NCBI RefSeq assembly: GCF_944324995.1
Contig: NZ_CALUYL010000001.1
Location: 1-64,000 of the forward strand
Direction of reading: 5' to 3'
DNA: 64,000 bases
Source of the DNA: an uncultured Mailhella sp.
Lineage (GTDB): Bacteria > Desulfobacterota > Desulfovibrionia > Desulfovibrionales > Desulfovibrionaceae
Below the pieces are notes generated by a model. The model had not been told where the DNA came from, searched no databases, and worked only from the letters and a program-made list of their open reading frames with translations. A program made the translations under genes and the position numbers. Shown here one piece after another: positions 36,976 through 40,728 of the stretch (within the stretch, counting starts at the first letter, position 1; every line of letters starts with the position of its first letter).

Positions 36976-38430
36976 ATGCTCTTCATCGAGAAATGCAAGG
37001 AAGCCGTGATCTCGGTCGTGCCGATCGTGATTCTGGTTCTCCTTCTTCATCTGACAGTTGCGCCCCTCGGCGACGCCCTGCCGAGATTTCTCGCGGGCGC
37101 AGTGCTCTTCATCATCGGCCTCGGCCTGTTTCTGGTGGGCGCGGACATCGGCGTGCTTCCCGTGGGCCAGAAGGTGGGCTCCACGCTCACCGGAAAGCGC
37201 AATCTCACCCTCATGCTTGCCGTGGGCTTCGTGGTGGGCTTCATCATCACCGTGGCCGAACCCGACGTTCAGGTGCTGGCCGCGCAGGTCACGGGCGTGG
37301 CTCCGGTCATCGCGCCCATGGCGCTCGTGTGCATCATTGCCGCGGGCGTGGGATTCTTCGTGGCCGTGGCCATGGGACGCATCATCTTTCAGCTTCCTCT
37401 CAAGCTGCTGCTGTTTCTCTGCTACGCCGCGGTGTTTCTCTGCGCCGCCTTCACGCCCGATCTCTTTCTCGGCATAGGCTTCGACGCAGGCGGAGCCACC
37501 ACGGGCCCCATGACGGTGCCGTTCATCATGGCGCTCGGCGTGGGCGTGGCCGCCGTGCGCGGCGGCAGCGGAGCCGGAGACGACAGCTTCGGCTTCGTGG
37601 GACTGGCTTCGGTGGGGCCCATTCTCGCCGTGCTCATGCTCGGGCTGTTCGCCACCCCCGCCTCGCCGGAAACGGCCGCCGCCGCGGAAGAAGGTTCGCT
37701 CGGGCTCGTTGCCCATTTTCTGCACCTTCTGCCCGAAGTCACGCACGAAGTGGCCATGGCTCTCGGCCCGCTCGCCGTGCTCTTTCTGCTGTTCCGGCTC
37801 TTTCTCATCAGACTTTCCCGCCGCCAGACGCTGCGCATGGTCATGGGCCTTGTCTATACGTTCTTCGGCGTCATTCTGTTCTTCCTCGGCGTGAAGGGCG
37901 GCTTCATGCCCGCGGGCGACGCGCTCGGCGCGCTGCTCTCCGCGCCGGAACACCGCTTCTGGCTCATTCCCGTGGCGCTGGTGCTCGGGGCCGTGGTGGT
38001 GTGCGCCGAACCCGCCGTGTGGATTCTCACCGAACAGGTGGAACAGGTTTCCGGCGGCGCCATCCGCCGCATGCTCATGCTGGCGGCCCTTTCCGCCGGC
38101 GTGTCCCTGGCCGTGGGCATTGCCATGTTCCGGGTGATCTCGGGAACGAGTCTCTGGTTCTTCCTCATTCCCGGCTACGCCGCGGCCATGCTGCTCATGC
38201 GCTTCTGCCCGCGCATGTTCACGGCCATCGCCTTCGATTCCGGCGGCGTGGCATCCGGCCCCATGGCCTCCACGTTCATTCTCGCCTTCATGCTCGGCGT
38301 ATCCAAGGGCGTGGGCGGCAATCCCGCCGTGGACGCCTTCGGATGCATCGCCATGATAGCCATGACGCCGCTCATCGCCATTCAGCTTCTGGGCATCGTT
38401 TTCAGCCGCAAGACGGGAGACCGCGCATGA
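36976..38430 (+). CDS. DUF1538 membrane protein (two repeats)
   Basis: 484 aa with about 12-14 membrane helices and two DUF1538 repeats. The repeat signatures are FDAGGATTGPMTVPFIMALG (about 173-192) and FDSGGVASGPMASTFILAFM (about 422-441), and AEPDVQVLAAQV parallels AEPAVWILTEQV. Probably a transporter; the substrate is unknown. AAAGGAG lies 4 nt before the ATG. Its stop overlaps the ATG of the P-II gene (ATGA), as expected for a channel and its P-II regulator. Confidence 0.93.
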   Translation: MLFIEKCKEAVISVVPIVILVLLLHLTVAPLGDALPRFLAGAVLFIIGLGLFLVGADIGVLPVGQKVGSTLTGKRNLTLMLAVGFVVGFIITVAEPDVQVLAAQVTGVAPVIAPMALVCIIAAGVGFFVAVAMGRIIFQLPLKLLLFLCYAAVFLCAAFTPDLFLGIGFDAGGATTGPMTVPFIMALGVGVAAVRGGSGAGDDSFGFVGLASVGPILAVLMLGLFATPASPETAAAAEEGSLGLVAHFLHLLPEVTHEVAMALGPLAVLFLLFRLFLIRLSRRQTLRMVMGLVYTFFGVILFFLGVKGGFMPAGDALGALLSAPEHRFWLIPVALVLGAVVVCAEPAVWILTEQVEQVSGGAIRRMLMLAALSAGVSLAVGIAMFRVISGTSLWFFLIPGYAAAMLLMRFCPRMFTAIAFDSGGVASGPMASTFILAFMLGVSKGVGGNPAVDAFGCIAMIAMTPLIAIQLLGIVFSRKTGDRA

Positions 38431-39122
38431 CCACCCAGCTCAACGAACAGGCAGGCAAACTGCTCATTGCCGTCATAGAAAAACACAAGTGCGACGCCGC
38501 CATGACCGCGGCCAGAAAAGCCGGAGCCCCGGGCGGCACCGTGCTCATGGGACGCGGAACGGCCCAGAGCAAATGGCTGCGCATTCTCGGCCTCGACGAC
38601 GTGGAAAAGGAACTGCTCTACACCCTGCTGCCCGCCTCGCTGGTCCGCCCCGTGATGAACGCCATACGCAACGCCCCGGCGCTCTCCAGAACAAGAGGCA
38701 TACTCTTCACCATCGACGTGCTCGAAGCCTTCCGGCGTCACGATTCCACGCCCGCCGCGCCTTCCCAGACTCAGGAGGACACCATGTCTGACAACAGCCC
38801 GGAACAGTCCGGCTACGAACTTCTCTCCGTCATCGTCAACCACGGCAGCGCCGATCAGGTCATGGACGCGGCCAGAAGCGCCGGCGCCACGGGCGGCACG
38901 GTCATCCACGCGCGCGGCACGGCCCGTCCGGACGACGCCTCCTTCTTCGGCATCACCATCGTGCCGGAAAAGGAACTCGTCATGATCCTCGCGCCGAAGG
39001 ACAAAAGCGCCCGCATCATGGAAAGCGTCAAGGCGGAATTCAAAGACGCCGAACCCGGTTCCGGCATCGCCTTCCGCACCGCCGTGGAATCCTTCGACAT
39101 GCTGGGCTCGCCCCGTCGATAA
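38427..39122 (+). CDS. tandem P-II-like regulator
   Basis: 231 aa with two GlnB-like domains in one frame. Domain 1 (about 10-100) has LLIAVIEKHKCDAAMTAARKAG and GGTVLMGRGTA. Domain 2 (about 128-225) has ELLSVIVNHGSADQVMDAAR, GGTVIHARGTA and FFGITIVPEKELVMIL. The T-loops are short, as in the P-II proteins found beside DUF1538 genes. P-II domains are trimeric nucleotide sensors that control channels; this one probably gates the DUF1538 protein. An internal ATG at 38784 with AGGAGG could produce domain 2 alone (112 aa, the usual P-II length). Confidence 0.88.
   Translation: MTTQLNEQAGKLLIAVIEKHKCDAAMTAARKAGAPGGTVLMGRGTAQSKWLRILGLDDVEKELLYTLLPASLVRPVMNAIRNAPALSRTRGILFTIDVLEAFRRHDSTPAAPSQTQEDTMSDNSPEQSGYELLSVIVNHGSADQVMDAARSAGATGGTVIHARGTARPDDASFFGITIVPEKELVMILAPKDKSARIMESVKAEFKDAEPGSGIAFRTAVESFDMLGSPRR
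38773..38786 (+). promoter_or_regulatory. internal ribosome site and ATG in tandem P-II gene
   Basis: AGGAGG (38773-38778) is followed by ACACC and ATG (38784-38786), in frame, exactly at the start of the second P-II domain. It is stronger than the site of the full-length ORF, so a separate second product is likely. Inference from sequence. Confidence 0.6.
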
Positions 39123-39148
39123 TCCTGCCGACGATATTGCCGAACATG

Positions 39149-39181
39149 ATCCCCGTCGCCTTCCCGCGGCGGGGATTTTTG
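39149..39181 (+). terminator. terminator after P-II gene
   Basis: CCCCGTCGC, loop CTTCCC, GCGGCGGGG, then ATTTTTG, about 27 bp past the stop; one mismatch in the stem. Confidence 0.8.
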
Positions 39182-39315: not shown

Positions 39316-39708
39316 ATGGACAACGATCTGCTTTACCGCGCCCTTGCCGACGACACCAGACGCAGGCTCATTCGTCTGCTGCTGAGCGGCAGCTGCTGCG
39401 TTTCCGCCCTCGCCGCCCGCCTGAACATCAGCGAAAGCGCCGTATCTCAGCATGTCGGCCTTCTGCGCCGCGCAGGTCTGCTTGATGGAACAAGACGCGG
39501 ACGCTTCATGCACTACGCCGTCAACCGGCAGCGCCTGCTCGATCTGGCCCGGGAACTGGAAGCGCTTGCCGCAACGCTCCCTGCCGACAAGGAGGACGAA
39601 GCCGCGCCGCGAGCCTTTCCCTGCGACGAAGCCATGCGCCGCCGCTGTCACGGCGCAGGCAAACTCCGCACGCTGCCCATGGCTCCGTCAACCGTCGAGG
39701 AACATTGA
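39316..39708 (+). CDS. ArsR-family transcriptional regulator
   Basis: 130 aa. The winged helix runs from ALADDTRRRLIRLLLSGSCC to LLRRAGLLDGTRRGRFMHYAV, with recognition helix SESAVSQHVGLLR. CC at 27-28 (SGSCCVS) and Cys103/Cys111 in the tail could bind metal or arsenite, but the classic CVCDL motif is absent. The next gene starts after 1 nt, so this regulator controls the YraQ-like permease pair and itself. Confidence 0.92.
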   Translation: MDNDLLYRALADDTRRRLIRLLLSGSCCVSALAARLNISESAVSQHVGLLRRAGLLDGTRRGRFMHYAVNRQRLLDLARELEALAATLPADKEDEAAPRAFPCDEAMRRRCHGAGKLRTLPMAPSTVEEH

Positions 39709-39709
39709 C

Positions 39710-40186
39710 ATGTCCACCGCCGCCCTCTACCTCGTCACGTTGCTTCTGCTCGCGCTCTCCTTCCGAAAGGACAGAAAAAAAACGCGTCAGGCGCTCGTCA
39801 AGGCCTGGAAATCGTTTGAAAACATTCTGCCCCAGTTTCTGGCCATCCTGGTGCTCATAGGCCTCATGCTCGCCGTGCTCGACAAAGAGCTCATCACCCG
39901 TCTTCTGGGCGCGGAATCCGGGGCGCTCGGCATGGCCATCGCCGCAGTGATCGGTTCCGTCACGCTCATTCCGGGCTTCATCGCCTTTCCGCTGGCGGCC
40001 TCGCTTCTTTCTTCCGGCGCAGGCTACGGGCAGACGGCCATGTTCCTCACCACGCTCATGATGGTGGGCATCGTCACTCTGCCGCTGGAAGGCACCTTCT
40101 TCGGCAAACGTCTGGCCCTGATGCGCAATGCGCTGGCCTTTTTCTACGCCGTCGTTTCCTCCGTCGTTCTGGGGGCGCTGCTGTGA
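39710..40186 (+). CDS. YraQ/UPF0718-like permease, N-terminal half
   Basis: 158 aa with about five membrane helices. GSVTLIPGFIAFPLAASLL is the kind of motif found in the YraQ (DUF318) permease family. At about half the usual family length, it pairs with the next gene, which starts at an overlapping GTGA. Family members are proposed to move metal or metalloid species; the substrate is unknown. Confidence 0.8.
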   Translation: MSTAALYLVTLLLLALSFRKDRKKTRQALVKAWKSFENILPQFLAILVLIGLMLAVLDKELITRLLGAESGALGMAIAAVIGSVTLIPGFIAFPLAASLLSSGAGYGQTAMFLTTLMMVGIVTLPLEGTFFGKRLALMRNALAFFYAVVSSVVLGALL

Positions 40187-40728
40187 TCGCCGCCGTTCTC
40201 CGCCGCTACCGCATGTTTCTGGCGCTTTTCGCCTTCAATGTCGCGCTGCTCTTCCTTGAACCCGCCGTCGGGAAAAAGGCTCTGGCCCTGACCGGAGACA
40301 ACGTGCTCGAAATGCTTTCCTTTCTGCCGCCCATCTTCGTGCTGCTCGGCCTTCTGGACGTGTGGGTGGACAGAGAAACCATGATGAAATACATGGGCGA
40401 AGGCTCCGGCGCGCGGGGCATGCTGCTCGCCTTTATTCTCGGCTCCGCCGCGGCGGGCCCCCTCTACGCCGCCTTTCCCATGGCCGCGGTCATGATGAAA
40501 AAGGGCGCGGGCATGCGCAACGTGTTCATCTTCATCGGGGCCTGGTCCACCACGAAAATCCCGCTCATTCTCTTTGAAAGCGCCACGCTCGGCTTCCGCT
40601 TCATGGCCATGCGCCTTGCCTTCAACATTGTGGGCATCTTCCTCATCGCCCTCATTCTGGAACGCGAGGCCAGGCGGCATCCCGTTCCCCTCCCCGCGGA
40701 ACCATCCTCCGAGCCCGGCAGGCATTGA
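40183..40728 (+). CDS. YraQ/UPF0718-like permease, C-terminal half
   Basis: 181 aa, GTG start overlapping the previous stop by 4 nt. Membrane segments include LLAFILGSAAAGPLYAAFPM, a counterpart of the IPGFIAFPLAA motif in the partner, and FIGAWSTTKIPLILFE. The ORF boundary falls between two halves of a single-chain permease family. The overlap suggests a two-chain permease rather than a recent frameshift, since both halves have proper ends. Confidence 0.8.
   Translation: MIAAVLRRYRMFLALFAFNVALLFLEPAVGKKALALTGDNVLEMLSFLPPIFVLLGLLDVWVDRETMMKYMGEGSGARGMLLAFILGSAAAGPLYAAFPMAAVMMKKGAGMRNVFIFIGAWSTTKIPLILFESATLGFRFMAMRLAFNIVGIFLIALILEREARRHPVPLPAEPSSEPGRH

Follow-up and report, generated by a model that had tools for sequence, protein, structure and literature searches.

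The tandem P-II gene and its locus

The stretch of DNA analysed here (64 kb, referred to as the window) contains on its + strand, at 38427-39122, a single open frame of 231 codons that encodes two P-II domains, termed D1 and D2. Both halves lie above the Pfam cut-off of 25 bits for PF00543 (D1 27.0 bits, D2 28.8 bits, both together 51.6 bits), so that the two P-II domains in one ORF described in the initial annotation are recovered, and they share 40% identity over 83 aligned positions. The divergent D1 and the linker comprise 119 codons (38427-38783, +) and are followed by the conserved D2 (38784-39122, +), which begins exactly at an in-frame ATG (38784, codon 120). An AGGAGG motif (38773-38778, +) is located 5 nt 5' of this ATG, i.e. 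the internal Shine-Dalgarno and start that had been pointed out before are confirmed, and initiation at this site is predicted to yield a separate D2 product of 112 aa. With a pairing energy of -10.3 kcal/mol this site is the strongest among all 281 in-frame ATGs inside the long ORFs of the window, which served as background; for comparison, the tandem gene's own start at D1 reaches -7.4 kcal/mol and that of the preceding DUF1538 gene -7.9 kcal/mol. RNA structure shows nothing unusual in the surroundings of the internal start (z -0.05).

P-II proteins are trimers, and glnK adjoins amtB, just as the tandem gene lies beside the gene of a membrane transporter. The likeness to the P-II family (GlnB/GlnK, SbtB, CPII) is evident from the presence of PF00543 in both domains and from the AlphaFold model of the tandem (pLDDT 74.9, pTM 0.72), which matches SbtB, CPII and GlnK2 in the PDB with E values of about 4e-4 to 1e-3, one domain each time; the model is that of a monomer, based on an alignment of moderate depth. 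The tandem differs from the family in having two domains per chain, an internal start, a shorter T-loop and DUF1538 instead of AmtB as partner. In place of the canonical B-loop motif GDGK, D2 has GxGI, while D1 has lost the motif, and the T-loop region of the tandem is several residues shorter than in GlnB/GlnK. Judged from these motifs, the tandem is a divergent P-II protein and no canonical GlnB/GlnK; as the B-loop is altered and the T-loop shorter, canonical sensing of ATP and 2-oxoglutarate should not be assumed. Two more P-II genes are located at other sites of the genome.

The gene preceding the tandem (36976-38430, +; 484 aa) encodes a DUF1538 transporter with both repeats of the family in one chain (PF07556, 427.9 bits in two stretches). 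UmpAB from Halomonas zhaodongensis, a DUF1538 system whose subunits UmpA and UmpB correspond to these two repeats, exchanges Na+, Li+ or K+ for protons (PMC5484666). By its sequence, the DUF1538 protein of the window is a member of the same Pfam family, but no equivalog of UmpA or UmpB: it combines both repeats in one chain, misses the NCBIfam equivalog cut-offs (NF041627, 159 bits with a cut-off of 490; NF041628, 121 bits with a cut-off of 500) and has a P-II partner, which the UmpAB paper does not mention (PMC5484666). The AlphaFold model of the transporter is helical (pLDDT 84.8, pTM 0.86), and a fold search with this model yielded no convincing match to a solved structure (best E 0.01). 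Going by the model, the fold may be undescribed for transporters.

The stop codon of the DUF1538 gene and the start codon of the tandem gene overlap in an ATGA (38427-38430, +), with a Shine-Dalgarno-like GGGAG (38415-38419, +) 7 nt 5' of ATG 38427, and an intrinsic-terminator-like hairpin of 12 pairs, 8 of them GC, plus a T run follows at 39148-39177 (+). Thus, overlap and terminator make the two genes look like one unit. Via the ATGA, translation of the tandem gene may be coupled to that of DUF1538. The neighbours identified at the locus are DUF1538, TauE/SafE, ArsR and permease genes, with no nif gene among them. In the region 39316-40728 an ArsR-type regulator precedes a pair of short permease-like ORFs that overlap each other. 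The first of these matches ArsP_1 over less than half of the profile, possibly reflecting a split permease.

Conservation of the internal start

We gathered 159 tandem ORFs, 97 of which are non-redundant (<70% identity to each other), and used for the start counts the 91 non-redundant genes that have no third P-II domain adjacent to them. An in-frame start codon is present in the linker of all 91; within a narrower search span at D2 there are 80 ATG, 7 GTG and 4 TTG codons. In 82 of the 91 linkers the Shine-Dalgarno pairing amounts to -5.5 kcal/mol or better, a threshold set after an initial look at the data, as compared to 26% of equal windows in the same genes; a first count had given 79/91 and a background of 18.5%. 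The median pairing is -7.1 kcal/mol for ATGs at the D2 start and -2.5 kcal/mol for other in-frame ATGs (p about 1e-33, with relatives treated as independent). A chance occurrence of the internal Shine-Dalgarno was rejected on grounds of both the ranking in the window and the conservation across divergent fused genes.

The six residues upstream of the internal start form a different word in every one of the 91 genes. On average, the observed pairing exceeds that of synonymous shuffles by 2 kcal/mol, and at the level of single genes 20 of the 91 beat their shuffles at p<0.1. Given this variety of preceding residues and the use of GTG or TTG for 11 of the 91 starts, it is the DNA signal that has been kept, not the protein. 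Comparison of these genes strongly supports internal initiation, the strength of initiation being a prediction. One gene (L200) considered as a tandem without internal start was rejected as such, as it contains GGAGG and an ATG about 24 codons 5' of D2.

The internal start is also found in the cultured organisms Peptoclostridium acidaminophilum, Paraclostridium bifermentans, Acetoanaerobium noterae and Vescimonas fastidiosa. Annotated records of the whole tandem gene, e.g. from the first two of these species, list the long protein only, and the short D2 product may therefore be absent from databases for many species.

A third P-II domain and the putative D1:D2:D2 trimer

In one Clostridia clade, ten tandem genes lack a start codon where D2 begins. 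The downstream gene could be recovered for six of them (L165, L170, L173, L179, L182, L250), and in all six it encodes a DUF1538 protein with a C-terminal P-II domain. Two genomes of this clade also carry an ordinary DUF1538-tandem locus with start codon and Shine-Dalgarno (L171 in G805, L172 in G732); the pairing in L162, L181 and L187, close relatives of these two loci, is -4.9 kcal/mol. The tandem gene of Mobiluncus (L048) has no internal start either, and there a stand-alone P-II gene of 112 aa follows a second DUF1538 gene. In the domain tree (see below) both the P-II domains fused to DUF1538 and the stand-alone domain of Mobiluncus are of the D2 type. Finally, three P-II domains reside in one chain at four loci from distant Desulfobacterota (L094, L095, L097, L098), the first domain having been read by eye in L097 and L098; the long linkers of these chains do contain start-like sites and are uninformative on start loss. 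Loss of the start together with presence of a third domain elsewhere is seen in about two clean independent lineages, i.e. the Clostridia clade and Mobiluncus, plus the three-domain chains.

Some further details of these loci were observed. DUF1538 proteins with their own C-terminal P-II domain are encoded by frames of 612-644 codons and occur, besides in the six loci above, in L251 and L252. In Mobiluncus curtisii (L048, 4645-6600) two DUF1538 genes succeed each other, one followed by the tandem P-II gene, the other by the single P-II gene. The three-domain chains, seen in L256 as well, lie beside unusual DUF1538 genes and may be one-chain P-II trimers.

A DUF1538 gene is located directly 5' of the tandem in 87 of the 97 non-redundant cases. 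This near-constant adjacency and the DUF1538-P-II fusions make it most likely that the P-II protein binds to the transporter and gates it, and on this genomic evidence we consider control of DUF1538 by P-II likely. In the open-access literature we found no paper that joins DUF1538 with P-II and none on a tandem P-II gene. If the tandem is the regulator, it would explain the control of DUF1538 antiporters, whose regulation appears unstudied.

The initial annotation had proposed two products that could assemble into mixed trimers with the DUF1538 transporter, and the comparison, with a linker start in 91/91 genes and P-II domains fused to DUF1538, lends support to this idea. We propose that ribosomes arriving from the overlapping DUF1538 gene would produce the full tandem D1-D2 of 231 aa, and that ribosomes starting at the internal AGGAGG-ATG would produce D2 alone, 112 aa in length. 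As P-II works as a trimer, one tandem chain, contributing two domains, and one short D2 would complete an asymmetric D1:D2:D2 trimer at a chain ratio of 1:1. This trimer might dock on DUF1538 and gate the antiporter upon binding of a small effector. A gene within a gene whose products form a D1:D2:D2 trimer controlling DUF1538 is, as far as can be judged from sequence comparison, the best explanation and a reasonably probable one; formation of the mixed trimer as such we regard as likely. Alternatively, full tandem chains may oligomerise with one another, or D2 may form homotrimers by itself.

The latter possibility leads to the most serious rival, namely that the two products belong to separate complexes, with D2 homotrimers conveying an ordinary P-II signal and the tandem being a minor or other species, e.g. 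an antagonist or a membrane anchor. It would fit the fact that, of the two domains, D2 is conserved and clusters with the single P-II found at umpA/umpB-type loci, D1 being divergent, and any excess of D2 could homotrimerise like other P-II proteins. We nevertheless deem separate complexes unlikely, as lineages without the internal start carry precisely one additional D2-type domain on a different chain, or three-domain chains. This pattern suggests a complex requiring D1-D2 together with a further D2, and the simplest reading of the exceptions is a D1:D2:D2 trimer whose third domain would be supplied by internal initiation, by the transporter or by a separate gene. Whether this extends to the whole P-II family of this type, i.e. 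an obligate asymmetric D1:D2:D2 trimer from one gene, with the number of three domains kept by other means when the internal start is lost (a third domain carried by the transporter, by a separate gene or within a three-domain chain), we consider an even question. If true, P-II assembly would follow a rule of three, and DUF1538 antiporters would possess a dedicated regulator.

Shine-Dalgarno-like sequences within genes have been proposed to act as ribosome pause sites. The internal Shine-Dalgarno, sitting in the interdomain linker, might accordingly cause a pause at the domain boundary that aids folding of D1, with little or no initiation. This role is improbable, however: a start codon is always present 3' of the site, sometimes as GTG or TTG, and its position relative to D2 varies; the clade with DUF1538-P-II fusions and Mobiluncus are devoid of the start codon itself and not just of the purine run; and the same spot is the true gene start in relatives that have D1 and D2 as separate genes.

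The P-II proteins, which belong to the best-studied sensors of bacteria, are regarded as homotrimers or, occasionally, as mixed trimers of the products of separate genes. If the third protomer is supplied by the internal start, the result would be a P-II trimer of fixed asymmetry. NifI1 and NifI2 are two different P-II paralogues encoded by adjacent separate genes, and the tandem likewise pairs two paralogues; it differs from them in that no nif gene is among the neighbours identified at the tandem locus and the tandem family is tied to DUF1538. The best PDB match by sequence is 9p1x, perhaps NifI, which contains two types of P-II chains in 12 and 6 copies, suggesting that unequal mixed P-II assemblies may exist.

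Internally started C-terminal products that act together with the full-length protein occur in other systems. Full-length YscQ still needs extra copies of YscQC, its own internally started C-terminal part, and a 1:2 stoichiometry has been proposed (PMC4295842). An internal start gives rise to Cas11b, a second, C-terminal protein that interacts with full-length Cas8b (PMC11899642), and RpnS, the C-terminal protein made from an in-frame internal start, interacts with full-length RpnL (PMC10327210). In contrast to the case described here, these proteins are not P-II proteins; moreover, the full-length protein of the present locus is a tandem duplication of the separately made domain.

Distribution and origin of the tandem

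Of the 17 relatives searched in the same genus, 11 have a match, and each of these 11 carries the tandem in one ORF; a stop codon between the domains is found in none of the tandem loci of the genus. Some other genera of the Desulfovibrionaceae have the same tandem, others a single P-II gene beside split DUF1538 genes. Outside the family, fused tandems next to DUF1538 are present in Bacilli (Gracilibacillus, Lederbergia), in Mobiluncus and in many Clostridia; among 391 genomes sampled from one Clostridia class, 130 have a match to the tandem profile, many of them over the full length in one frame. In some Clostridia D1 and D2 are separate genes, mostly overlapping or abutting and in a different frame, with the Shine-Dalgarno of D2 inside D1 or near its 3' end.

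A recent local fusion or an assembly error was rejected, given that the fused form is general across the genus, the family, Bacilli and Clostridia. The same distribution argues that the start is kept by selection and is no leftover, and conservation of the internal start by selection is, from the comparison of these genes, very probable. That the site is the relic of a recent fusion, in which an indel joined two overlapping genes and left the former start without function, is highly improbable: D1 and D2 do exist as separate, overlapping genes in Clostridia, the Shine-Dalgarno of D2 lying within D1, but fused genes of Desulfobacterota, Bacilli and Clostridia retain this start at identities as low as about 30%, whereas a relic would decay.

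In the domain tree a 97% branch splits the D1-type domains, including D1 of the window, from the D2-type domains; where D1 and D2 are separate genes, each of them lies on its own side of this branch. Thus, the D1-D2 pair is an old duplication. To the initial annotation, the ORF looked like the product of two genes that merged when a stop codon was lost. Clostridia do have separate genes, whose mostly overlapping or abutting, out-of-frame arrangement makes a frame-shifting indel a possible origin of the fused form; the event is not recent here, however, and either fusion or fission may have come first.

In one further lineage (f82; L253, L254, L255) a tandem P-II gene lies beside split DUF1538 genes, and both its domains are D2-like. 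This tandem also has an internal start (AGAGG-ATG) and may represent an independent duplication. For f82 (L078-L080) a quick tree suggested a separate origin of the tandem; the AU test is compatible with a single D1 clade (p 0.87).
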